Shown one piece after another: positions 39,591 to 63,308 of a DNA stretch of 64,000 bases (position 1 is the stretch's first letter; each line of letters opens with the position of its first letter). Made by a program: the position numbers and the translations under genes. Origin of the DNA: Oceanobacillus oncorhynchi (GTDB lineage Bacteria > Bacillota > Bacilli > Bacillales > Amphibacillaceae). The stretch spans positions 2,914,001 through 2,978,000 of the forward strand of contig NZ_CDGG01000001.1 of the NCBI RefSeq assembly GCF_000821065.1. The letters run 5' to 3'. The notes beneath the pieces are model-generated. The model saw nothing but the letters and a program-made list of their open reading frames with translations, searched no databases and had not been told where the DNA came from.

Positions 39591-40082
39591 TATTACTATA
39601 GATGATTTGGTTTTCATGTAATAACTTGTACAATAAAGCTAAATATATACCATTTTTATCAATTAGATTTTGAGAATAAAAAGAGAATGGATTTAATTTA
39701 TCACCTATTGAATCAAGAATATTCATAATAAGAATGTTTTCTCATTTTTAATAAAATATTACGTTTCAAAGTAAAATACATGTATTTTACTCAATGAATT
39801 AAATTTCCGATGCTAAAGATACTTTTCCTAAAAAGCAGGAAGTTAGATTTGTTATTCGCATAATAATAAGTAAGTAATGCGTTTTTTGGGAGTTGTCATA
39901 GCCGCTTTGAAATAATTCACTCTGGCTATTATTAATAAAAAGAATAGAAAATAATATTTTACATATACTACCTGTTGATTAAAATAGATGGACTTTTATT
40001 TGTTTGCATACTATATAAGGGTATTTAGAAGCGGATTAGGTTGAATAATCAATAATCCTTGAAACAAGAGAGGAGAATAGAT
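39591..40082. other. Gene-free stretch, 492 bp, with a 22-bp palindrome
   Basis: AT-rich. Perfect palindrome of 22 bp centred on TACATGTA at 39770-39791 (arm AGTAAAATACA). A half CsoR-type motif (ATAAGGGTATTT, about 40015) precedes the second csoR. The minus frame 39514-39726 overlaps the terminator and is not a gene. Confidence 0.5.
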
Positions 40083-47223: not shown

Positions 47224-48786
47224 TTATTTAGCGCGGGATTTATAATTGTAATCACTATATCGAGCCACTTTATATTTTTTATTTGCGATTTTAGAGTGTC
47301 TAATTTTATCTTCATTTCTTAACTCTTTCAGCACTGCCCAGCAAATAAAAACAGTAATAATGGTAAATGGGGTGGCTATGACGATAGCTATTGTTCTGAC
47401 TGCTTCCAGTCCGCCGGCTAATAGGAAAACGACAGCAGACCCTGCAGTGATTAGTCCCCATGTTATTTTAAGATTTCTTGACGGATTTGGTTTACCATTG
47501 CTGCTCAGCATCCCTAATACAAATGTAGCGGAATCTGCTGAGGTGATAAAGAAAATAAAAATTAGCAAGAGAGCCAATATGCTTAAAAAGTTGCCCAGTG
47601 AGAATTCACTTAGAAAAGCAAACAAAGCTCCGTCTACATTTGCGTTTATCGTTTCCGCTAATTGGCTGTTGCCTAAATCATGAATTAAATGAATAGCACT
47701 GCCTCCGAGAACTGAAAACCAGATAAAGGATATCAAGGAGGGTACTAATAATACGCCCAAAACAAATTCCTTAATGGTTCTTCCCTTCGAAATTCTGGCC
47801 ACAAATGAGCCTACAAAAGGAGACCATGTGGTCCACCAGGCCCAGTAGAACACCGTCCATGTGCCTATCCAATTGCTTCCTTCACTATTAAAAGGTTCCA
47901 TCCGAAGACTCGTAGGCAGTATACTTCCTACATAACTTCCTGTAGTGGAGATCAGTATTTCAAAGATTTGTCTGGTAGGCCCTAGGATAAGTATGATAGA
48001 CACAACAAAAGCTAAAAGTACTATGTTGAAGTAAGATAAATATTTCAATCCCCGATTTAATCCTGACCACGAGGAAATAATAAATAACAAAGTAGCAAAT
48101 CCGATGATAAGCATTTGAATAGGGAATGTAATGGGCACTCCCCATTGAGCATTCATTCCATTGTTAATTTGTAAAGTACTTAATCCAAATGTACTAGCTA
48201 CACCAACTGCAGTGATAAATACAGAAACAATATCAATTATTTTGCCAGGAGTTTCATAAATCCGATTCCCCAACAACGGATAAAAAATAGAACTTATGGA
48301 AGGTGGAAGCCCTTTTCGAAAATGAAAATAAGCTAAACCTAAAGCTACAGTTCCGAATAATGCCCAAGGGTGCATCCCCCAATGAAAAAAGGTGGCTTTC
48401 ATTGCTTCGGTGGCAGCTTCTGCTGTTGCACCTTCTCCAGTTGGAGGTGTTATATAATGTGAAACTGGTTCAGCAACTGCCCAAAACACCAAACCAACCC
48501 CCATGCCTGCACTGAACAGCATGGAAATCCATGACAACGTACTATAAGCAGGCTTATCAGTGTCTTTTCCTAACCGTGTCTTTCCATATTTCGAAAACAT
48601 TAGAAAAAGACAAAACCCTACAAATATAGTGCCTACAAGTAAATAAAACCAGTTGAAATAAGTGACTGTAAAATTCAAAAATACAGATGCTTTCTGCCCT
48701 AGCCAATCATTAAAAGCAACCCCGATGATTACAAACAAAATACTTAATATTAAAGATATACTAAGAACGCTATTTTCCTTAAACAA
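47224..48786 (-). CDS. BCCT-family betaine transporter (copy 1, divergent)
   Basis: 520 aa, twelve helices, sodium-coupled uptake of betaine-type compounds. The GMGVGLVFWAVAEP motif in TM3 and the Trp-box YWAWWTTWSPFVG in TM8 are complete, so betaine binding by Trp cation-pi contacts is expected. I use TTG at 48786, which follows GGGAGGAG and aligns with the start of copy 3 (MFKNN). It is transcribed away from the catabolic genes from a shared control region; its promoter holds an AATCATGATT core and a cre-like box. Confidence 0.92.
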   Translation of the reverse strand: MFKENSVLSISLILSILFVIIGVAFNDWLGQKASVFLNFTVTYFNWFYLLVGTIFVGFCLFLMFSKYGKTRLGKDTDKPAYSTLSWISMLFSAGMGVGLVFWAVAEPVSHYITPPTGEGATAEAATEAMKATFFHWGMHPWALFGTVALGLAYFHFRKGLPPSISSIFYPLLGNRIYETPGKIIDIVSVFITAVGVASTFGLSTLQINNGMNAQWGVPITFPIQMLIIGFATLLFIISSWSGLNRGLKYLSYFNIVLLAFVVSIILILGPTRQIFEILISTTGSYVGSILPTSLRMEPFNSEGSNWIGTWTVFYWAWWTTWSPFVGSFVARISKGRTIKEFVLGVLLVPSLISFIWFSVLGGSAIHLIHDLGNSQLAETINANVDGALFAFLSEFSLGNFLSILALLLIFIFFITSADSATFVLGMLSSNGKPNPSRNLKITWGLITAGSAVVFLLAGGLEAVRTIAIVIATPFTIITVFICWAVLKELRNEDKIRHSKIANKKYKVARYSDYNYKSRAK

Positions 48787-48943
48787 AAAATCTCCTCCCA
48801 GTTTCAATACTCCCTAAAGTAATCCGACAAATTATCCCAGCTCGTCTTATGGTAATTTTAACAAATTTTAGTAGTAGTTATAAGTTTAAAATCACTTCCT
48901 TAAAAAACAAATACTAGACTTAAATGTAATTAATAGATATAAT

Positions 48944-48957
48944 TGGAATCGCTTACA
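48944..48957 (-). promoter_or_regulatory. cre-like box at the BCCT copy 1 promoter
   Basis: On the minus strand TGTAAGCGATTCCA fits the CcpA consensus TGTAANCGNWNNCA. It lies just downstream of the likely start point, where CcpA usually blocks transcription. Confidence 0.6.
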
Positions 48958-48965
48958 CAATCAAG

Positions 48966-48993
48966 ATTATATCATAATCATGATTGAATACAA
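48966..48993 (-). promoter_or_regulatory. BCCT copy 1 promoter with AATCATGATT core
   Basis: Minus strand -35 TTGTAT (48993-48988), 16-bp spacer, -10 TATAAT (48971-48966). AATCATGATT (48976-48985) fills the spacer, matching the centre of the large palindrome at 49040-49085. Confidence 0.65.
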
Positions 48994-49026
48994 ATAATTT
49001 TTTATAAATTTTTAATAAATAAAGTA

Positions 49027-49085
49027 TTGCATTTATTAATAATTACGGTTATATTATAATCATGATTATAATATAACCGTAATTA
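49027..49085 (+). promoter_or_regulatory. Promoter with perfect 46-bp palindrome for the catabolic operon
   Basis: -35 TTGCAT (49027-49032), 17-bp spacer, -10 TATATT (49050-49055). The -10 is inside a perfect palindrome 49040-49085, arm TAATTACGGTTATATTATAA, centre TCATGA. It contains the same AATCATGATT core as the divergent promoter, so one regulator probably controls both. Confidence 0.7.
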
Positions 49086-49214: not shown

Positions 49215-50255
49215 ATGAGTAATTCTAAAGAAGTAGACGTTTTATGGTTGTCTCAAGAGGAATGTATTGAAAGCGGCGCAAAAGATATGGATATGATTCT
49301 GGAATATGTAGAAAAAGTAAATTTATGGTTGGCAGAAGATAAAGTGGTTGAACCAGAATTATTACACCTGTTATGGGAAGAAGGAAACTACTCAGGTAAA
49401 AGAATTGGTGTACACGCTGCTTTGATCCGTTCAGAAGAAATGCGTGTTGCTGCTGTTAAAGGTATCCCGAGTAATCCTTTGAACCCGGTAGAAAGACAGA
49501 CACCAAGATCAAATGGAATGATTATTCTTTATAATGAAGATACAGGATATCCATTTGCGGTTATGGATGATACTATTGTAAGCGCTTTACGTACAGGGGC
49601 TTCCAGTGCTCTAGGAGCGAAGTATTGTGCCCGTCCAGACTCGGAAGTACTTGGATTAGTAGGATGCGGTGTTATTCAAAATGCTCATATCGAGGCAACA
49701 AGCAAAGTAATGAAAAATATTAAAACCGTACGACTATATGACATGAATGAGGATCGCGCAAAACAATTCGCTGATAGATGGAAGCATTTAGGCTATAATT
49801 TTGAAATCTGTAAAGATGTAGAACAGGCGGTAGCGCAATCTGATATTGTATATACAGCAACAAACGTCAACTTAGGAAATGAATATATTCCGAAAGAATG
49901 GATTAAAAAAGGATCTTTCCACTCTGGAGTGTCGATGTGGGATCATAAAAACGAAGCTATTTTAGAAGGATTTAATAAATATTGCATGGATTATAAGCTC
50001 CGTTTAAAAGATGATAAATATCCTTTATCTGAACTTACAAAAGCTGGTAAATTAGCTCAGGACGATATTATTGAATTAGGTCAGGTAATTAAAGGAGATA
50101 AAGTTATTCGGGAAAATGACGATGACAGCATCTTCTTTGTAACACTGGGTATTTGCGCAACAGATACAGCAAACAGCTATCAGATTTATCAAAATGCGAA
50201 AGAGCGCGGATTAGGTACTCCAGTGAAATTATGGTCTGAGCCTGCAATGTATTAA
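49215..50255 (+). CDS. Ornithine cyclodeaminase/mu-crystallin family NAD(P)-dependent enzyme
   Basis: 346 aa, with the family's N-terminal segment, the DDTIVSALRTGASSALGAKY motif (substrate Arg region) and Rossmann motif GLVGCGVIQNAH near 150. Family members deaminate ornithine to proline or reduce cyclic imines such as pyrroline-2-carboxylate to proline. Together with the proline-racemase-family gene at 56175 and the P5C-dehydrogenase-like gene next to it, the pyrroline-2-carboxylate reductase role is attractive (inference). Some databases name related sequences as tyramine oxidase subunit B. First gene of the operon; ribosome site AAGGAAG, ATG 49215. Confidence 0.85.
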   Translation: MSNSKEVDVLWLSQEECIESGAKDMDMILEYVEKVNLWLAEDKVVEPELLHLLWEEGNYSGKRIGVHAALIRSEEMRVAAVKGIPSNPLNPVERQTPRSNGMIILYNEDTGYPFAVMDDTIVSALRTGASSALGAKYCARPDSEVLGLVGCGVIQNAHIEATSKVMKNIKTVRLYDMNEDRAKQFADRWKHLGYNFEICKDVEQAVAQSDIVYTATNVNLGNEYIPKEWIKKGSFHSGVSMWDHKNEAILEGFNKYCMDYKLRLKDDKYPLSELTKAGKLAQDDIIELGQVIKGDKVIRENDDDSIFFVTLGICATDTANSYQIYQNAKERGLGTPVKLWSEPAMY

Positions 50256-50274
50256 TCTTTAGGAGGTGTCTTTA

Positions 50275-51822
50275 TTGCCTATCACACCATTTAAAAACGA
50301 TATGCCGACAGATTGGGGAAAATCTGAAAATCGAGAAGCATTAAATAAAAATTTAGAATATGTAAGAACAGAATTTGGCAAGGAATATCCTCTGATTATT
50401 GGAGGAAAAGAAGTTTCAAAAGAAAACAAACTGGCTTCTTATAATCCGGCTTCCCATCATGAAGTGATCGGTTATGTTAGCCAAGCTGGTAAAGAAGATA
50501 TTGAAGAAGCAATAACTGCTGCCAAAAAAGCACATGAAGGCTGGGGCGCTATAACTTTCCTGGAAAGGGCCCGTTATTTATTCAAAGCAGCTAAAATTAT
50601 GGAGCGGCGCAAACCGGAATTGGTTGCCTGGCAAATATATGAAGCAGGTAAAAATTGGGCGGAAGCTGATGGAGAAATTAACGAGGCAATTGATTTTCTG
50701 GAAATGTATGCTCGTAAAGCCATCGAGCTTGAACAGGGAGAAAATCTGGTTACCATACCGGGGATTGAAAACCATCTTGAATATAAGCCGCTTGGGGTTG
50801 GAGCTGTCATTTCTCCTTGGAATTTCCCGTTGGCAATTGTTACGGGAATGACTGTGTCCGCCATCGTTACCGGCAATACTGTACTATTGAAGCCAGCTTC
50901 CTTGACTCCAATCGTAGCAGCTAAATTTATGGAAATCATGCATGAAGCAGGTGTTCCTGATGGAGTTATTAATTATATTCCAGGTTCCTCCAGAGAAATA
51001 GGGGACGATTTAGTAACACACAGAGATATCAATTTTATTTCGTTTACCGGTTCCATGGAAGCAGGTCTGCACATCGATGAATTGGCTCATAAAAGAATAC
51101 CAAATCAACGCTGGGTAAAGCGGGTTGTTGCTGAAATGGGCGGAAAGAACGGTATTGTTGTAGATGAATCAGCAGATTTAGACGCTGCTGCAGATGGAAT
51201 TGTAACATCGGCATTTGGTTACCAAGGACAAAAGTGTTCTGCGGGCTCCAGAGCTATCATTCATGAGAGCGTTTACAATGAAATGGTTGATAAAATTGTT
51301 GAACGTACGAAAAAACTTCATGTCGGCCCAGGTACTGAAAATAATCCAATTGGTCCTGTGATTGATGATAAAGCGTTTAAAAATATCAACGAATATATAG
51401 AAATTGGGAAAGAAGAAGGAAAACTGGCTTTTGGCGGCAACAGTGATAATACGGAAGGGTATTATATTACGCCAACCATTTTCAAAGATGTCGCTCCAGG
51501 ATCAAGGATAATGAAAGAGGAAATTTTTGGGCCGGTTCTGGCTATATGCAAAGCATCGAGTGTTGAAGAAGGAATCGATGTATATAATGATACTCAGTTT
51601 GGATTGACAGGAGCTTTATATACGAACAATCGTGAACAAATCTCCTATGCTCGAAGAAAAATGGAATGCGGAAATTTATTTTTAAACGGTAAATGTACAG
51701 GAGCATTAGTAGGAATCCAGCCATTTGGCGGTTATTATATGTCCGGTACTGGGGAGAAAACAGGAACTTTAGAGTATTTATTGCATTTTGTGCAAGCAAA
51801 AACAATTGCTGAAAATTTTTAA
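50275..51822 (+). CDS. Aldehyde dehydrogenase of the P5C dehydrogenase (RocA/PutC) type
   Basis: 515 aa. Closely resembles RocA: YPLIIGGKEV near the start, EADGEINEAIDFLEMYARKA, catalytic Asn in ISPWNFPLAI, Glu in EMGGKNGIVV, and catalytic Cys in GQKCSAGSR, near residue 316. This family oxidises glutamate semialdehyde (P5C) to glutamate, the last step of proline catabolism. In RocA the motif is EMGGKDTV; here Asn replaces Asp. I use TTG 50275, 8 nt after AGGAGG. Overall fit: it completes a betaine-to-proline-to-glutamate route. Confidence 0.88.
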   Translation: MPITPFKNDMPTDWGKSENREALNKNLEYVRTEFGKEYPLIIGGKEVSKENKLASYNPASHHEVIGYVSQAGKEDIEEAITAAKKAHEGWGAITFLERARYLFKAAKIMERRKPELVAWQIYEAGKNWAEADGEINEAIDFLEMYARKAIELEQGENLVTIPGIENHLEYKPLGVGAVISPWNFPLAIVTGMTVSAIVTGNTVLLKPASLTPIVAAKFMEIMHEAGVPDGVINYIPGSSREIGDDLVTHRDINFISFTGSMEAGLHIDELAHKRIPNQRWVKRVVAEMGGKNGIVVDESADLDAAADGIVTSAFGYQGQKCSAGSRAIIHESVYNEMVDKIVERTKKLHVGPGTENNPIGPVIDDKAFKNINEYIEIGKEEGKLAFGGNSDNTEGYYITPTIFKDVAPGSRIMKEEIFGPVLAICKASSVEEGIDVYNDTQFGLTGALYTNNREQISYARRKMECGNLFLNGKCTGALVGIQPFGGYYMSGTGEKTGTLEYLLHFVQAKTIAENF

Positions 51823-51856: not shown

Positions 51857-53014
51857 ATGAAATCAATTGAAGGCGGTTTTCCAAGTTACGCAAAGTTTGA
51901 GCCTACGTCTCCAGGGAGTGATTATTATGATCCGAATCACTTTCATGAAGAGTTAGAGAAAATATGGTTTAAGACATGGCTGCTTGCAGGAAGAGAAGAA
52001 GAAATCCCGAACAGCGGCGATTATAAGACAGTTCAGATTGCACATGAGAATTTTATTGTTACCCGCGGTTCAGATGGCGAAATTAATACGTACTATAATG
52101 TCTGCCGCCATCGCGGTTCCCGCTTGTGTACGACAGAGGCAGGAAACTTCCCTAGAGGGAGAATCATCTGCCCTTATCATAGCTGGATGTATAGTGGGGA
52201 TACTGGTGAATTGACAAAAGCGCCAAATATTTCGGATGAAGATGAAGGCTTTGATAGAAGTGAGCATTCCCTGGTTAGCATAAGAACAGAAACATGGGAT
52301 GGATTTATTTGGATCAATGCGGATTCAGAAGCTCCTTCACTAAAAGAGAGTTTTAATTTGCCAGAATCCTGGTCTATTTATGAGCAATACCAAATGCACA
52401 GACTGAAAATTGGTAAAACAGGAACCTATAATGTAAAAGCAAATTGGAAATTGTTAATGGATAACGCAGAGGAATGCTATCATTGCGGCACGATTCATCC
52501 GGAATTAAGCAAAGCAACTCCGCCAATGCAGCCTAGACAATGGGTTGATGAAGAGGTGCCGGAAACAAAGGTTATCAAACACGTTGGATCTATGGGATTA
52601 AATCCTGGATTTGAGCGCGTGAATGTAGACGGGAAAGCTTACCGGCCTGTATTCCCTGGATTAAGTGAAGAGGATCAGCGTAAAATTGCTTATTTGCATA
52701 TTTTCCCGCATTCTTATATCTGCATGGCTTCTGACTATGTATTTATTGCGGCAATCTTCCCGATTAAAGCAGATGAATCTGTGGTGAAAGGATACTGGTT
52801 GTTTGACCCGGATGTTTTAGAAAAAGATGACGCATATATCGATGATGCAGTTGAATTCTGGGATGTAACCTGTCAAGAGGATTGGGAGGCTTGCGCACTT
52901 GCACAGCAAGGAAATGAATCCAGATCATATAAAGATGGCGGCACGCTGACGCCAATTGACTGGCGAGTTGCCAATTTTAAGAAGTACGTGCAGGACGAAA
53001 TGGAAAAGAACTAA
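51857..53014 (+). CDS. Rieske oxygenase, alpha subunit (quaternary-ammonium demethylase type)
   Basis: 385 aa. Rieske [2Fe-2S] ligands in NVCRHRGSRLC and CPYHSW (Cys-x-His ... Cys-x2-His, about 80-105); mononuclear iron ligands in NAEECYHCGTIHPEL (two His, about 208 and 213). The residue bridging the two centres is Glu (E-C-Y-H), where arene dioxygenases have Asp; Glu is known in the carnitine oxygenase CntA. So hydroxylation of an N-methyl group, releasing formaldehyde, is likely. Ferredoxin and reductase genes follow. Start ATG 51857 with GGGAGGT. Confidence 0.9.
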   Translation: MKSIEGGFPSYAKFEPTSPGSDYYDPNHFHEELEKIWFKTWLLAGREEEIPNSGDYKTVQIAHENFIVTRGSDGEINTYYNVCRHRGSRLCTTEAGNFPRGRIICPYHSWMYSGDTGELTKAPNISDEDEGFDRSEHSLVSIRTETWDGFIWINADSEAPSLKESFNLPESWSIYEQYQMHRLKIGKTGTYNVKANWKLLMDNAEECYHCGTIHPELSKATPPMQPRQWVDEEVPETKVIKHVGSMGLNPGFERVNVDGKAYRPVFPGLSEEDQRKIAYLHIFPHSYICMASDYVFIAAIFPIKADESVVKGYWLFDPDVLEKDDAYIDDAVEFWDVTCQEDWEACALAQQGNESRSYKDGGTLTPIDWRVANFKKYVQDEMEKN

Positions 53015-53122: not shown

Positions 53123-53482
53123 ATGACAAATCAGACAGAAAACCTTCCGTTAGAGGAAAATAAGTATACCTTTGCAGCAGCAAGTGATTCAGTTAAAGAA
53201 GGGGAAATGATTGATATATTTCTTGGAAAAGAAACCGTAGTTCTGGCAAGAGTAGACGGTTCCGTGTATGCGGTAGATGGCATTTGTTCGCATGCCTATT
53301 CAGAAATGGTGGATGGGGAACTAGAGGACCATTGTTTATATTGCCCGCTTCACTTTGCTTGTTTTGACATTCGCGACGGCTCTGTATTAGAGGGGCCAGC
53401 TGTTACGCCATTGTCTGTCTATGACGTAATGGAACAAGACGGCTCGATATGGATAAAAGCTTTGGATATATATGGAGAATGA
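53123..53482 (+). CDS. Rieske-type ferredoxin
   Basis: 119 aa, cytosolic. [2Fe-2S] ligands Cys-x-His in GICSHAYSEM and Cys-x2-His in YCPLHFACFD (about 54 and 73). It carries electrons from the reductase encoded next to the oxygenase upstream, giving a three-component system instead of the two-component one of CntAB. Ribosome site GAGGAGGGAG, ATG 53123. Confidence 0.92.
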   Translation: MTNQTENLPLEENKYTFAAASDSVKEGEMIDIFLGKETVVLARVDGSVYAVDGICSHAYSEMVDGELEDHCLYCPLHFACFDIRDGSVLEGPAVTPLSVYDVMEQDGSIWIKALDIYGE

Positions 53483-53557
53483 TGAAGCGAAATAATTTAA
53501 TATGATACAGAAATGTAAAATATATTCCGTTTTAAAGAAGATTGGAGAGGATGAAAG

Positions 53558-54793
53558 ATGACTAATTCTGCTGAAACGATTATGATTATCGGAGCTGGTA
53601 TAGCAGGAATACATGCAGCCGAAGCGCTGCGTAATGAGGAGTATGAAGGCCGAATTGTGTTAATTGACCGAGATACAGAGCTGCCGTATGACCGCCCGCC
53701 GCTTTCAAAGGAATTTATGCTGGGTGAATCCACAGAAACGGATATCGCTTTGCATACGCAAGAAAATCTTGAAGAGCTGCAAATCGATTTGAAGCTTGGT
53801 GTTGAAATCGTTTTGATTGATTCAGAGAAGCAAAGCGCCGTTTTATCAGATGGAGAAACAATAAACTGGGATAAGCTTTTATTAACGACAGGTTCCAGCT
53901 TAAGAAGGTTGCCGATACAAGGATCTGATCTGGAAGGTGTTCACTATTTGAAGACATTGTCTGATGCAAAAGCAATAAGAGGGAATTTGGATGATATTCA
54001 ACAGATTGCTATTGTTGGAGCAGGTTTTATTGGAGCAGAGCTTGCATCTTCATTCAAAAAGCTGGGTAAAGAAGTAACTTTGTTGGAGCGTGCACCACTC
54101 CCTTTAGCTCACATTCTAGGTGACGAAATGGGAGAATATTTCCTTCAAATGCATCAAGCTGAAGGCGTAGAAGCTATTATGGAAGATACCGTTGTACAAT
54201 TTAATGGAGAGACACAGGTTGAAGAAGTTCTGACAGAGAAAGGGAAAACCATTCCATGCCAGGCAGTCATTGTAGGTGTCGGAGTTATTCCAAATACAGC
54301 ATTGCTTGATAAAGAATTACAGATTGACCGTGGTTATATCGTTAATGAATTTGGTGAGACATCATTACCAAATGTATATGCTGCCGGGGATTGCGCGATG
54401 TGGCCATTTTTAGGAAATAACATTCACATAGAACATTGGGACCATGCAATCAATCATGGTAAATGTGTTGCGAAAAATATGCTGGGAGGAGAGCAAACCT
54501 CTTATTCTACCGTTCCATATTTTTGGTCCGATCAATACGATTACCGGTTACAATATTTTGGACATACGAAAAATTGGGAAACGACAGTGTTACGGGGAAA
54601 TGTAGAAGATAAGGAATTTAGCTATTTTTATCTAAATAAAAGTAATGTAATCGAGGCGGCTTTACTCGTAAATCAACCCAAAAATGCTTTGGCAGTGCGC
54701 AGATTAATTAACCAGCAGAAGCCTGTAGTTCCAGAGCTATTACCTAATACGGATATAAAATTGAAAGAGTGTATGTATGTAGAGGTGGATTAA
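53558..54793 (+). CDS. FAD-dependent ferredoxin reductase
   Basis: 411 aa. FAD motif IIGAGIAGIHAAEALR, NAD motif VGAGFIGAELASSFKKLG and FAD motif VYAAGDCAMWP, then a C-terminal reductase dimerisation domain. The class of BphA4/PdR-type NADH:ferredoxin reductases. Supplies electrons to the Rieske ferredoxin. Ribosome site TTGGAGAGG, ATG 53558. Confidence 0.92.
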   Translation: MTNSAETIMIIGAGIAGIHAAEALRNEEYEGRIVLIDRDTELPYDRPPLSKEFMLGESTETDIALHTQENLEELQIDLKLGVEIVLIDSEKQSAVLSDGETINWDKLLLTTGSSLRRLPIQGSDLEGVHYLKTLSDAKAIRGNLDDIQQIAIVGAGFIGAELASSFKKLGKEVTLLERAPLPLAHILGDEMGEYFLQMHQAEGVEAIMEDTVVQFNGETQVEEVLTEKGKTIPCQAVIVGVGVIPNTALLDKELQIDRGYIVNEFGETSLPNVYAAGDCAMWPFLGNNIHIEHWDHAINHGKCVAKNMLGGEQTSYSTVPYFWSDQYDYRLQYFGHTKNWETTVLRGNVEDKEFSYFYLNKSNVIEAALLVNQPKNALAVRRLINQQKPVVPELLPNTDIKLKECMYVEVD

Positions 54794-57719: not shown

Positions 57720-57807
57720 ATGCAGGGGGTACAATTTTAACCCCTGCAAAATGAATCATTTAGTTAATCGATATGAGAAACTGAAAAAGGAGAGCAAAAG
57801 ACTGAAT

Positions 57808-58817
57808 ATGCCCAAATTATTCACACCAATAACATTTCGTGGCATGGAGATAAAGAATAGAATTGTTATGTCACCGATGTGTATGTACTCATGTAAAGAA
57901 GATGGAATCATCACACCCTTTCACTTGACACATTTAGCGAGTCGGGCAGTCGGTCAGGTTGGACTGATTATCACGGAAGCAACCGCAGTTCAGCCAGAAG
58001 GGCGTATTTCTGTGGAGGATTTAGGAATTTGGGATGATATTCATGTAGAAGGGTTAAAGGATTTGAATGAACAGATACATGCATATGGAGCAAAAGCAGG
58101 TATCCAGTTAGCCCATGCAGGCAGAAAGGCAGTAGTAGACTCTGACATTTTCGCTCCTTCTTCGTTTCGCTTTAACAGTAAAAGTAAGGTTCCTATTGGA
58201 ATGGACGCCGAAGATATCGAACGAACAGTTGAAGCATTCAGACAAGCAGCTCGGCGTGCAAAGGAAGCAGCTTTTGATGTCGTGGAAATACATGGAGCGC
58301 ATGGATATTTAATCAACCAATTTTTGTCCCCGTTAGCAAATAAATGAACAGATCAATATGGCGGGTCACAGGAGAATCGTTACCGTTTTCTTTCTGAAAT
58401 TATAGAAGCAGTAAAAAAAGAATGGAGCGGACCTGTATTCGTACGAATTTCTACTGATGAGTACCATAAGAGGGGAATACCTTGGAAAATATGATTTATT
58501 TCACAAATGAAATGAAAAAACAAGGTGTCGATCTTATTGATTGCAGTTCCGGCGGTGTTGTGCCAGCCGAAATCAACCCGTATCCCGGTTATCAAGTGCC
58601 GCGATGTGAAGCAATTAAACGAGAAACAATGATTGCTACTGGTGCTGTTGGACTGATCACAAATGGCATACAAGCGGAAGAAATATTACAAAATGAACGA
58701 GCAGATGTGGTAGTACTCGGGAGAGCCTTACTAAAGAATCCGTATTGGGCAAAAGCGGCAGCCGATGAATTAGGGTATGATATTGAGGCGCCGGTTCAAT
58801 ATCGCGGCTGGAAATAA
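57808..58817 (+). pseudogene. namA: NamA/YqjM-like old-yellow-enzyme gene with nonsense and frameshift
   Basis: Sequence follows B. subtilis Yqj[17 protein letters not shown] (active-site Cys), [27 protein letters not shown] and ATGAVGLIT. Codon 58345-58347 is TGA where Arg (CGA) is expected in LANK-R-TDQYGGS, and near 58479 one base is missing so the frame shifts. Repaired length is 336 aa, the family length. The FMN enzyme reduces activated alkenes; some clusters use related flavoproteins for demethylation, so its loss may have changed the pathway. Confidence 0.88.
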
Positions 58818-59125: not shown

Positions 59126-60649
59126 ATCAAACAACATATCGTTTTAAGAGTTTCAATAATCATTTCTTGCTGTTTAATTGTTCTGGGTCTCTTATTTAGA
59201 AATTGGTTAGAAAAAATGGCTCCAACGTTTTTAAGTTTTAACGTTAATTACTTTGGAGTTTTTTATTTGTTCGCAGGCTTTATCGTTGTCGGAATATGCG
59301 CATATTTAGCTTTTTCGAAATTTGGAAATATTAAATTAGGAAAAGATACCGAGAAGCCTGAGTTCAGCACTGTTTCATGGATCTCAATGTTATTTGCAGC
59401 CGGTATGGCGATAGGTTTAGTATTTTGGGCAACTGCTGAACCAATTACTCACTATTTATATCCGCCGCAAGGGGAAGGCTCTACTGCAGAATCTGCGGAT
59501 ACTGCGATAAAATATACTTTCTTCCATTGGGGGCTCCAGCCTTGGGGGTTATATGGGATTATTGGGCTGGGTATGGCTTACTTTCAATTTAGAAAAGGGC
59601 TGCCTGCTAGATTTAGTTCTATTTTTTATCCGCTTTTAAAAGAAAGAATATACGGTCCAATCGGAAACGCCATCGATATATTTGTAATCATTATCTCTGC
59701 TATCGGTTTAGCGAATTCGTTTGGATTAGGAGCCCTACAAATTTCTGAAGGGGCTAATATATTATGGGGATTATCTAATACAACAGCTGTTTCCATAGTA
59801 ATTATAATCATTGGTACCATATTATTTATGACGTCTGCAGTTACCGGACTGAAACGTGGTATCAAGTATCTTTCTAATTTTAATATGATACTAGCCATTC
59901 TGATTACATTATTTATATTTGGTTTCGGACCGGCTAAACATATAATTGATGTGTTTATTACTGGTACTGGCAGTTATTTAAATGATTTTTTATCCATGAG
60001 CACCAGACTGGCTCCGTTTAATAGTGAAGAACAAAATTGGATTTCAAATTGGACTGTGTTTTACCTTGCATGGTGGCTGTCATGTGCTCCGTTTGTTGGA
60101 GCATTTATCGCAAGAGTATCCAGAGGACGAACAATTAAAGAGTTTGTGCTGGCAGTACTCGTTGTGCCTTCACTGATGTGTTTTGTATGGTTTTCTGTAT
60201 TTGGAGGTACAGGTATTTACCTGATACATGAATTAGGGAATACAGTGTTAGGAGATATTGTTAGTTCAAATGTTACTTCTGCGTTATTTGCATTTCTTGA
60301 TTATTTTCCAATGAGTTCTTTCACAAGCATTCTAGTTATGCTGTTAAGCTTAGTCTTTTTTATCACACAAGCAGATTCTGGAGCTTTTGTGTTAGCAATG
60401 TTCAGTTCAGGGGGGAGCCTTAACCCGCCTAATAGAATAAAGCTGATCTGGGGAGGTGTTCTTTTTAGCTATGCAATTATTTTAGTTATAGCTGGAGGAT
60501 TAGAGACTGCAAAATCAGTACTTATAGTCTTCACTTCGCCGCTTGCTTTATTAATTTTAATCATGTGTTACGCAATTTTAAAAGGTTTAATGAAAGATGA
60601 GTCTGAAATAAAAAGTGAGTATGCAGAAGATGGAAAGGAAGTTAGCTGA
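59126..60649 (+). CDS. BCCT-family transporter (copy 2), non-standard start and altered binding site
   Basis: About 507 aa if translated from the ATC at 59126, which lies 6 nt after AGGAGG at the exact place where copy 3 has its ATG region; no ATG, GTG or TTG fits. The first ATG (59216) would remove most of TM1. TM3 motif is GMAIGLVFWATAEP (second Gly changed to Ala) and the TM8 Trp-box is YLAWWLSCAPFVG, where the last Trp is Cys. Both changes affect the betaine site known from BetP. Either a decaying gene or a carrier for another substrate. Confidence 0.75.
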   Translation: MKQHIVLRVSIIISCCLIVLGLLFRNWLEKMAPTFLSFNVNYFGVFYLFAGFIVVGICAYLAFSKFGNIKLGKDTEKPEFSTVSWISMLFAAGMAIGLVFWATAEPITHYLYPPQGEGSTAESADTAIKYTFFHWGLQPWGLYGIIGLGMAYFQFRKGLPARFSSIFYPLLKERIYGPIGNAIDIFVIIISAIGLANSFGLGALQISEGANILWGLSNTTAVSIVIIIIGTILFMTSAVTGLKRGIKYLSNFNMILAILITLFIFGFGPAKHIIDVFITGTGSYLNDFLSMSTRLAPFNSEEQNWISNWTVFYLAWWLSCAPFVGAFIARVSRGRTIKEFVLAVLVVPSLMCFVWFSVFGGTGIYLIHELGNTVLGDIVSSNVTSALFAFLDYFPMSSFTSILVMLLSLVFFITQADSGAFVLAMFSSGGSLNPPNRIKLIWGGVLFSYAIILVIAGGLETAKSVLIVFTSPLALLILIMCYAILKGLMKDESEIKSEYAEDGKEVS

Positions 60650-60679
60650 CTTAAAAAAGAAAAGAAGGAATGTTTAATT

Positions 60680-60693
60680 GTAAACGCTTACCT
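60680..60693 (+). promoter_or_regulatory. cre-like box before BCCT copy 3
   Basis: TGTAAACGCTTACC is almost the ideal CcpA site, 60 bp before the gene start. Confidence 0.65.
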
Positions 60694-60753
60694 AAGGCGG
60701 GGCTATGAAACCTATCTTTGTTTTCATTAAAAATGAATTAGAAAGGAATTTCT

Positions 60754-62283
60754 ATGTTTAAAAATAATTTGATTTTACGTGTCTCTTTAATTATTTCATT
60801 ATCCTTTATGGTCTTTGGTATTGTATTTAGAGAGTGGTTGGAAAAAGCTGCTCCTGCTTTCTTGAGTTTTAATGTGAATTATTTTGGCCCGATTTATCTT
60901 GTGGTTAGTTTATTAATTGTAATTACCAGTATCTATCTTATGTTTTCAAAATATGGTTCGATAAAATTAGGAAAGGATTCGGACCAGCCTGAATTTAGTA
61001 CGTTGTCTTGGATATCCATGTTATTTGCTGCAGGGATGGGGATTGGATTGGTTTTTTGGGCGACTGCCGAGCCCGTCATGCATTATACGTCCCCGCCTGT
61101 TGGTGAAGGATTAACTTCTGAGTCAGCCGAACTTTCAATAAAGTATACATTTTTTCATTGGGGATTACACCCATGGGCATTGTTTGGTTTAGTTGGATTA
61201 GGAATGGCTTACTTTCAATTTAGAAAAAATCTTCCTGCCAGAGTAAGCTCTATTTTTTACCCTGTTTTGGGTGATAGAATTTATGGGCCATGGGGCAAAA
61301 CAATTGATATTTATGCAATTTTCATTACAGTTATAGGTATTGCTCAGGCATTTGGATTAGGAGCAATTCAAATTTCTGAGGGAGCAAATTTTCTTTGGGG
61401 ATTTTCTAATACAATAGCTGTTTCAATGATTATTATCATTGTTGGCACGATATTATTTATGATATCTGCGCTTACAGGGGTCAATCGCGGGATAAAATAT
61501 CTTTCTAATTTTAATATGCTGTTAGCTCTTAGCTTGATGCTGTTTATTTTCCTTATAGGGCCTACAAAACAGATAATAGATATTTTTATCAGCGGGACAG
61601 GAAGTTATTTAAGTGATATATTGACAATGAGTTCACAGTTAGCTCCTTTTAATGGCGACCAGCAAAATTGGGTTTCCAATTGGACAATATTTTACCTTGC
61701 ATGGTGGTTAACCTGGGCATCGTTTGTTGGCGCATTTATATCCAGAATATCAAAAGGAAGGACAATCAGGGAGTTTGTCATTGCAGTTCTTTTCTTCCCC
61801 ACTATATTATGCTTTATTTGGTTTTCCATTTTTGGCGGAGCAGGTATACACCTCATCCATGACCTGGGGAATAGTATGCTGGGCGATGCTGTCAACACAG
61901 ATGTTACGCAGGCGTTATTTTCGTTCCTGGAATATTTTCCATTGAGCTCTCTAACCAGTGCTTTAATGATGCTTCTATGTTTAGTATTTTTCATCACTTC
62001 AGCCGACTCAGGCACGTTTGTGCTTGCAATGTTTAGCTCTGAAGGGAATATTAATCCTGATAACAAGATAAAGTTTATCTGGGGATTAGTTATTTTTTGT
62101 ATATCAGCCGTATTTATATTAGCTGGAGGCTTAGAAACGATAAAGACAGTAGTCATTGTAGTGTCCACTCCGTTTATTATATTTATGCTATTTATGACAT
62201 ATACGATATTAAAAGCATTGAAAAGTGAATTTAAATATTCGAAAGTAAAAAAGGAAGAAGAGGTTAAATCGAAAACCGGATAA
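60754..62283 (+). CDS. BCCT-family betaine transporter (copy 3)
   Basis: 509 aa, twelve helices. TM3 motif GMGIGLVFWATAEP and TM8 box YLAWWLTWASFVG (Trp present; Pro replaced by Ser) indicate sodium-coupled betaine uptake. Close relative of copy 2, with the same opening (LRVSLIISLS), so the pair arose by tandem duplication. Charged Lys/Glu C-terminal tail, as in osmoregulated members. Ribosome site AAAGGAA, ATG 60754. Confidence 0.92.
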   Translation: MFKNNLILRVSLIISLSFMVFGIVFREWLEKAAPAFLSFNVNYFGPIYLVVSLLIVITSIYLMFSKYGSIKLGKDSDQPEFSTLSWISMLFAAGMGIGLVFWATAEPVMHYTSPPVGEGLTSESAELSIKYTFFHWGLHPWALFGLVGLGMAYFQFRKNLPARVSSIFYPVLGDRIYGPWGKTIDIYAIFITVIGIAQAFGLGAIQISEGANFLWGFSNTIAVSMIIIIVGTILFMISALTGVNRGIKYLSNFNMLLALSLMLFIFLIGPTKQIIDIFISGTGSYLSDILTMSSQLAPFNGDQQNWVSNWTIFYLAWWLTWASFVGAFISRISKGRTIREFVIAVLFFPTILCFIWFSIFGGAGIHLIHDLGNSMLGDAVNTDVTQALFSFLEYFPLSSLTSALMMLLCLVFFITSADSGTFVLAMFSSEGNINPDNKIKFIWGLVIFCISAVFILAGGLETIKTVVIVVSTPFIIFMLFMTYTILKALKSEFKYSKVKKEEEVKSKTG

Positions 62284-62645: not shown

Positions 62646-63308
62646 ATGTCAAACAAAGAAATTCAAATGCAGCGCATGTGGCAATATTTCGTAGATGCTA
62701 CAGTTGAAATTATTGAGCAAAAGGGCATTGAAAATGTTACTATACGAGAGATTGCTACGAAAGCAGGATATAATAGTGCCACTATCTATAATTATTTTCA
62801 GGAAGTTTCTCACCTCATCTTTTTTGCAGCACTGAAATATTTAAATAAATATATTGAAGGTCTTCCTGAATATATGGAAAAGGAAGAAAATCCTTTGGAT
62901 AAATACTTATTGAGTTGGGAAAGCTTTTGTAAACATTCTTTTGAAGATCCGGAAATTTATTATGCTATCTTTTTAGCTGATCTGGGAGAAAATCCAGAAG
63001 AATTATTGAAATATTATTATAATGTCTACCAATCAGATTTATACGGAGAGGTTTCAGAAGATATAAAGACTATTATAACGGATTATAACCTTTCATCGAG
63101 AAGCCGAAATGAATTGTATAAGTCTGTTCAGGAAGGTATGCTATCTGAAGAAACAGCTGCTATTATTAACGAGAGAACCGTGCTGGTATGGCAGGGGATG
63201 TTAATCACTGTATTGAATAATCGGCGTCATTTGAATGCGGATGAAGCAGCAGAGAAGACGATGGAACATATAAAAGGAATTGTAAACATCTATACCTTAG
63301 CCAAGTAA
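62646..63308 (+). CDS. TetR-family transcriptional regulator
   Basis: 220 aa. N-terminal HTH in IEQKGIENVTIREIATKAGYNSATIYNYFQ; the C-terminal ligand domain is unrecognised, with many aromatic residues. It closes the betaine cluster and is the best local candidate for binding the palindromes at 48976 and 49040, since TetR proteins bind such symmetric sites. No matching palindrome lies in its own upstream region. Ribosome site GGGAGGGA, ATG 62646. Confidence 0.87.
   Translation: MSNKEIQMQRMWQYFVDATVEIIEQKGIENVTIREIATKAGYNSATIYNYFQEVSHLIFFAALKYLNKYIEGLPEYMEKEENPLDKYLLSWESFCKHSFEDPEIYYAIFLADLGENPEELLKYYYNVYQSDLYGEVSEDIKTIITDYNLSSRSRNELYKSVQEGMLSEETAAIINERTVLVWQGMLITVLNNRRHLNADEAAEKTMEHIKGIVNIYTLAK

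Follow-up and report, generated by a model that had tools for sequence, protein, structure and literature searches.

A candidate TetR operator core between divergent betaine uptake and catabolic genes of Oceanobacillus oncorhynchi, and a long palindrome probably formed there by template switching

BetI-type TetR repressors (TIGR03384) control choline and betaine genes. The regulator considered here is likewise a TetR-family protein, with probable local control of quaternary-amine genes, and BetI is its best NCBIfam match; however, it matches the N-terminal domain only (42 against 201 bits) and sits beside a Rieske catabolic cluster. GbsR and OpcR are also repressors of betaine/choline uptake genes in Bacillales, but they are MarR-type, whereas the present regulator is a TetR protein. 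Their control of choline/betaine uptake in Bacillus subtilis is the subject of two papers (PMC7396694, PMC6207618). A further comparison concerns the origin of a long palindrome at this locus. In quasipalindrome-associated template-switch mutation in Escherichia coli, the nascent strand serves as template and an imperfect repeat is perfected (PMC7202029); the insertion reported below carries the same signature, but it is a natural regulatory insertion of 17 nt, recognized by comparison alone. Template-switch insertions of a reverse-complement copy can reportedly create a perfect stem in one event (PMC8794818), in work that concerns RNA genes rather than operator-promoter DNA as here. Among the matches listed, titles and abstract beginnings of open-licence PMC articles gave no account of this operator or of a TetR regulator for these transporters in Bacillales, which is not proof of absence, and a literature search for the exact core returned none relevant by title among the matches listed.

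The window, by which we mean the whole stretch of 64,000 nucleotides that was analysed, belongs to a genome of 4.6 Mb in one contig. The genes of the cluster are as follows.

47224-48807, minus strand: BCCT transporter gene (betaine/carnitine/choline family; PF02028, 3.5e-179; best NCBIfam match NF047988 with 604 bits, below the 650 cut-off)
49215-50255, plus strand: ornithine cyclodeaminase/mu-crystallin family enzyme (OCD; PF02423), first gene of the catabolic operon
50266-51822, plus strand: aldehyde dehydrogenase of the L-glutamate gamma-semialdehyde dehydrogenase type (NF002852, 747 bits, above the 648 cut-off)
51857-53014, plus strand: Rieske oxygenase alpha subunit, GbcA-like, far below the equivalog cut-off
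53123-54793, plus strand: Rieske ferredoxin and ferredoxin reductase (domain match)
59216-62283, plus strand: two more BCCT transporter genes (59216-60649 and 60754-62283; PF02028 in both)
62646-63308, plus strand: TetR-family regulator gene, recognition helix NSATIYNYF, BetI-like N-terminal domain; proposed ligand-responsive repressor

A zinc-type dehydrogenase and a proline-racemase-family enzyme are also encoded in the operon or the genes after it. Judging from the gene families, the cluster would serve the uptake and demethylation of some proline-type betaine. An old-yellow-enzyme (NamA-like) gene in the same stretch is split (57751-58347 and 58482-58817): its first 198 amino acids span profile positions 1-181 of 339 and a second open reading frame follows. 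At this position a relative of the same genus (G002) has a single frame of 359 amino acids, and the gene of the window genome looks like a broken one.

The 407 nt between the BCCT gene on the minus strand and the OCD-first operon on the plus strand are the intergenic control region shared by both. It contains the following features.

48943-48957, no strand: cre-like site, candidate for CcpA catabolite control, 15/15 to WTGNAANCGNWNNCW, which we take to be the cre consensus for CcpA
48959-48968, no strand: partner core AATCAAGATT, 17 bp from the BCCT-side core, overlapping the BCCT -10
48966-48993, minus strand: putative BCCT promoter, -35 TTGTAT (48993-48988) and -10 TATAAT (48971-48966), N16
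48976-48985, no strand: candidate operator core AATCATGATT, BCCT side, in the spacer of the minus-strand TTGTAT-N16-TATAAT
49027-49032, plus strand: -35-like TTGCAT of the putative catabolic promoter, 3/6 to TTGACA (TTGC in six of seven relatives, TTGA in G548)
49040-49085, no strand: perfect 46-bp palindrome, arms 49040-49063 and 49062-49085, centre 49062/49063; in none of seven relatives
49041-49057, no strand: left-arm insertion of 17 nt, lineage-specific, exact reverse complement of 49068-49084; contains the mirrored partner core AATTACGGTT (49041-49050)
49050-49055, plus strand: putative -10-like TATATT, spacer 17 from TTGCAT, apparently created by the insertion; ends in the left arm
49058-49067, no strand: candidate operator core AATCATGATT, catabolic (OCD) side; a core with up to 2 mismatches followed by TATAAT or TAGAAT is present in 8/8 TetR-type clusters
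49067-49072, plus strand: TATAAT, the -10 position of the relatives, spacer now 34 from the -35
49068-49085, no strand: right arm, judged ancestral; contains partner core AACCGTAATT (49075-49084), 17 bp from the core

The initial annotation had reported the perfect 46-bp palindrome and a 10-bp core common to both sides of the region, and the sequence agrees exactly on both. It had also called such a length unusual, and the palindrome is indeed far beyond chance at the region's composition: the longest one in 2000 first-order Markov replicas of the intergenic region was 24 bp, and about 2e-5 palindromes of this kind are expected per 4.6 Mb at that composition. The second-longest perfect palindrome of the window is 22 bp (39770-39791, AGTAAAATACATGTATTTTACT). 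The core itself occurs at 25 places in the genome and the pattern read backwards at 1, and dinucleotide shuffles of the window give 0.33 cores per 64 kb, extrapolated to about 24 per genome; the rarity of the core alone thus depends on the control chosen. A reading of the core as a global regulon motif was rejected, as 25 copies are close to the shuffle expectation, though the reversed pattern is found only once. No core with up to one mismatch precedes the BCCT genes at 59216-60649 and 60754-62283.

Searches with the OCD protein covered 98, 159, 397 and 29 genomes plus named contigs, and a search with the TetR protein covered 398 genomes. Seven relatives have the OCD/Rieske cluster with a divergent BCCT gene and a tetR gene: G002 (same genus as the window), G193 (same family), Scopulibacillus, Salibacterium, Alteribacillus, G548 and G709. 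They are not uniform. In G548 the divergent BCCT protein is closer to another BCCT protein of the window and tetR lies beyond the divergent BCCT gene; G709 has a different aldehyde dehydrogenase (33% identical), adjoining tetR; and in the window and G002 the reductase and tetR are separated by other genes. An OrfB_IS605/TnpB-like transposase gene is located about 1 kb 3' of tetR in G002 (L054:487-1926). It was found that each of the eight BCCT/catabolic intergenic regions of the TetR type (the window and the seven relatives) has 2-4 cores with up to one mismatch, when 0.04-0.14 are expected, and all eight genomes whose intergenic region has the core have tetR in the cluster.

Three further OCD copies showed no match to the window TetR in the stretch read, which for Pseudalkalibacillus stops at the contig end. 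Upstream of OCD there is an RpiR-family gene (HTH_6 and SIS) in O. jeddahense and G540, and a SIS-only reading frame in Pseudalkalibacillus. In these loci (L050, L051/L007 and L064) OCD, with a Rieske gene in two, lies downstream of the RpiR/SIS-type gene and there is no core. Cores with up to one mismatch were absent in 3/3 OCD copies with an RpiR/SIS-type gene upstream (500, 181 and 500 nt read), an absence expected by chance anyway as only 0.01-0.09 cores are expected. Regulator type and motif go together in the eleven regions compared, and the RpiR/SIS-type copies would represent a regulator swap on the same pathway.

The regulator encoded at 62646 has a TetR_N helix-turn-helix domain (PF00440, 42.5 bits against a cut-off of 24), and with 42.3 against 201.3 bits it is not assigned to the BetI equivalog. 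Its AlphaFold model is helical, but the mean pLDDT is 58 with 4 sequences; all 20 PDB sequence matches begin in the N-terminal DNA-binding part and none exceeds 27 bits. We compiled 86 TetR loci, consisting of 35 rows (398 genomes, E to 1e-40) and 50 rows (159 genomes, E to 1e-20), 3 of them shared, plus 4 cluster loci, with duplicates counted once (L056 = L048; L058/L063 = L049), and searched 350 bp upstream from the gene start as placed by the tblastn match. The exact core was present at 17 of the 35 loci with the NSAT helix and at none of the 51 with other helices (Fisher p 1.1e-8, descriptive only because related sequences are counted, the core-bearing rows being mostly one clade). With up to one mismatch the counts are 24/35 and 2/51, and after proteins about 90% alike were collapsed the exact core remained in 11/27 against 0/38. 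There are 18 NSAT loci without the exact core and 11 without it even at one mismatch, including the window's own tetR, before which the best match has 3 mismatches. For the tetR genes of the eight clusters, AATCATGATT is upstream in Alteribacillus, AATCTTGATT in four, and neither in the window, G002 and G709. A different motif, ATGAACnnGTTCAT with up to 2 mismatches, was found at 21/29 TSSTA loci, 1/9 TSSTV and 1/30 NSATI. In the tree, 16 of the core-bearing rows form a single clade and the remaining one is Alteribacillus; the TetRs of the clusters likewise make up one clade, with 100/99 support. The NSAT and TSST helices are clades, and therefore the tests overstate independence and few origins may underlie them.

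The core-bearing loci are often beside transporter genes: a BCCT match was obtained at 10 of the 17 and an OpuC-type ATPase at 6, and 1 has neither. The one OpuC-type ATPase that was scanned scored above the cut-off of the proV subfamily. Since the TSST loci also hold OpuC-type genes (13/46) and BCCT genes (9/46), besides a CocE/NonD-type hydrolase in 25/46, the transporter link is a property of the wider TetR family. The layout was examined at 15 chosen loci out of the 35 NSAT loci. At eleven of them, none belonging to this cluster, tetR and a BCCT gene diverge and the core lies between the two, exact in 9 and with one mismatch in 2. Of the other four, three carry it between tetR and the gene for a CocE/NonD-type hydrolase, and one is the Alteribacillus cluster. 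The initial annotation had proposed that one repressor acts on both promoters and had named the TetR protein as candidate. This proposal is supported by the tetR genes in all core-bearing clusters, by the core at NSAT-type genes and by its position beside BCCT genes elsewhere. Among the sister tetR genes with a TSST helix, ATGAACnnGTTCAT palindromes lie upstream in L095, L103, L131 and L148, on both sides of tetR in L100, L101 and L102, and on the 3' side in L070, L079 and L081; in L100, L102 and L148 they are extended to perfect palindromes of 28 bp.

The cores are also arranged in pairs. In an offset test, 40 offsets (11-30 nt on either side of a core) were scored for a second core-like 10-mer, and +17 was the best of the 40 in both sets examined. 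In the eight cluster regions, anchored on AATCRYGATT, the mean at +17 was 5.53 against 3.30 (sd 0.60; 17 sites, window included). In the non-cluster tetR upstream set, anchored on exact cores, it was 6.0 of 10 matches against an all-offset mean of 3.16 (sd 0.75), the 17 sites including some from near-identical genomes. The layout in the window is AATCAAGATT-7 nt-AATCATGATT on the BCCT side and AATTACGGTT-7 nt-AATCATGATT-7 nt-AACCGTAATT on the catabolic side. A two-core module of this type (17 bp start to start, 0-2 mismatches) is rare, occurring genome-wide only in this region and once at 2631529, and its reversed control has no match genome-wide. Two paired-core sites, at 2631529 (near an aldo/keto reductase gene) and at 1642171 (near PadR and dihydrouridine-synthase genes), were set aside, as no betaine link was seen at either.

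A TTG-type -35 with TATAAT and a spacer of 16-17 nt is present in five of the eight BCCT regions (window, Scopulibacillus, Salibacterium, G193 and G548). A consensus promoter scan returned 3 promoter-like sites against 3.2 in shuffles, with neither the catabolic nor the BCCT candidate promoter among them. The promoters of the initial annotation, with the core in the BCCT spacer and the -10 TATATT in the left arm, are plausible but weak. A -10 match of at least 5/6 has a chance of 0.024 at the spacing of 17 and of 0.067 at any of three spacings, so that TATATT at this position hints at selection for a working promoter without proving it. The cre-like match of 15/15 recurs in six of the eight TetR-type regions (Alteribacillus and G709 reach 13) and in none of the three of RpiR type; Markov replicas gave it in 0/300 for the window region and 2/300 for G002. 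Such a site suggests that CcpA exerts catabolite repression immediately downstream of the BCCT promoter.

We now consider the long palindrome. The initial annotation had named its absence in relatives with the same cluster as evidence against it. The search of relatives gave a divided answer: the short core is kept in the TetR-type clusters, but the palindrome is found in none of the seven relatives, where the longest perfect palindromes at the region are 8-16 bp. Because of this absence the long form fails by the annotation's own measure as a conserved functional element and only the short core passes; the control unit would be the short core, not the long palindrome. The distance from the start of the -35 to the core is 14-15 nt in 7/7 relatives and 31 in the window, and the spacer from the -35 to TATAAT (TAGAAT in G548) is 17-18 nt in all seven and 34 in the window. 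The extra stretch at 49041-49057 amounts to 17 nt against the relatives with 14 nt and to 16 against those with 15. It is absent in 7/7 relatives, with one genome per species compared, and it is the exact reverse complement of the adjacent 49068-49084, as expected of a quasipalindrome template switch. Perfect palindromes of 14-16 bp around the same core in G002, Scopulibacillus and Alteribacillus offer a pre-existing inverted repeat as pivot. Of 18 positions, the right arm has 12-15 in common with six relatives and 7 with G548, and the left arm 6-10 in common with each of the seven; because the right arm matches the relatives better, the left arm is taken as the derived one. When the 17 nt were removed in silico, one template switch onto the complementary strand restored the window sequence, with at most 4 nt of microhomology at the entry junction and a return point that is free around the self-complementary core. 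As the starting sequence is the window minus the insert, the model shows sufficiency, not history. With the insertion, the old -10 is out of range and the -10-like TATATT is supplied at spacer 17. The palindrome is therefore more readily accounted for by an inverted 17-nt insertion in the window's lineage than by a conserved functional role, as far as sequence comparison can indicate.

Other readings of the palindrome were weighed. Its single-strand DNA fold is strong (-17.2 kcal/mol, z -7.7), which would fit a structure selected for itself as a cruciform or RNA hairpin, and the cruciform raised in the initial annotation is energetically possible, but nothing here indicates a role. The seven relatives keep the control region without the palindrome, and if TATATT is the -10, transcription would start near the palindrome centre, so that the transcript would carry one arm and a hairpin of both arms would not form; we consider functional structure very unlikely. 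A terminator or attenuator was rejected, since the scan shows no terminator-like site. It is similarly improbable that the left arm was built by stepwise substitutions under selection for a symmetric operator. Symmetry could strengthen binding, and elsewhere some tetR genes of this family are likewise accompanied by perfect palindromes, 16-28 bp long, but the change is a length difference of 16-17 nt against all seven relatives, and the insert is an exact inverted copy even at positions where the right arm departs from them. Palindromes are prone to sequencing and assembly artefacts, and a single genome of the species was compared; nevertheless, the assembly is one contig of 4.6 Mb, the inserted stretch is short and exact, and a plausible promoter remains, which makes an artefact the least probable of these readings.

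The core could also be bound by another regulator, of Fur/PerR type or a global protein, with the TetR association arising by hitch-hiking. TTATAAT...ATTATAA does resemble the PerR box as commonly given, and a stretch at 2647381, which lies ahead of an E1-E2 ATPase gene and near a sequence that by eye is Fur-box-like, matches the palindrome in part. PerR and Fur boxes have the half-site spacing 7-1-7, but here the half-sites are 4 bp apart (TTATAAT-CATG-ATTATAA), not 1, and the match at 2647381 is an AT-rich stretch beside the Fur-box-like sequence; a Fur/PerR box was rejected. Moreover, NSAT-type TetR genes have the core beside them in loci that lack this cluster, and the three RpiR/SIS-type copies do not carry it, which leaves little probability for binding by another regulator.

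We consider it probable that a TetR-family repressor co-controls uptake and catabolism and that a template switch remodelled one of the two operator-promoters. AATCATGATT would be the operator core of the repressor encoded at 62646, and each of the divergent promoters would have paired core-like sites, 17 bp apart, on either side of its -10 region or overlapping it. Because of this arrangement, a single repressor could shut the BCCT uptake gene and the Rieske/aldehyde-dehydrogenase operon together. A quaternary-amine ligand would release it, and the cre-like site would add catabolite control. The ancestral state was presumably that of the relatives, in which a TTGC-type -35 precedes the short core and a TATAAT-type -10 follows it. 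One intra-strand template switch in replication, pivoting on the self-complementary core, would have copied the right flank backwards; the copied 17 nt, inserted left of the core, would have produced the perfect 46-bp palindrome, brought in the partner core in mirrored form and moved the old -10 away while providing another. Overall, what appears well supported is an ordinary type of repressor operator to which a mutation in this one lineage has given an unusual form. A bolder version is possible but rather doubtful, namely that a single switch of one 17-nt operator period turned a two-core site into a symmetric three-core array and moved transcription to a new -10, as a snapshot of saltatory regulatory evolution.

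For a TetR subfamily that is often beside betaine transporters, these results provide a testable operator, paired AATCATGATT with a 17-bp period, and the difference between the NSAT and TSSTA recognition helices predicts the site (AATCATGATT or ATGAACnnGTTCAT, respectively). The locus also offers a natural example of what looks like the reconstruction of an operator together with a promoter in a single step, through a replication template switch of the kind documented in reporter assays.
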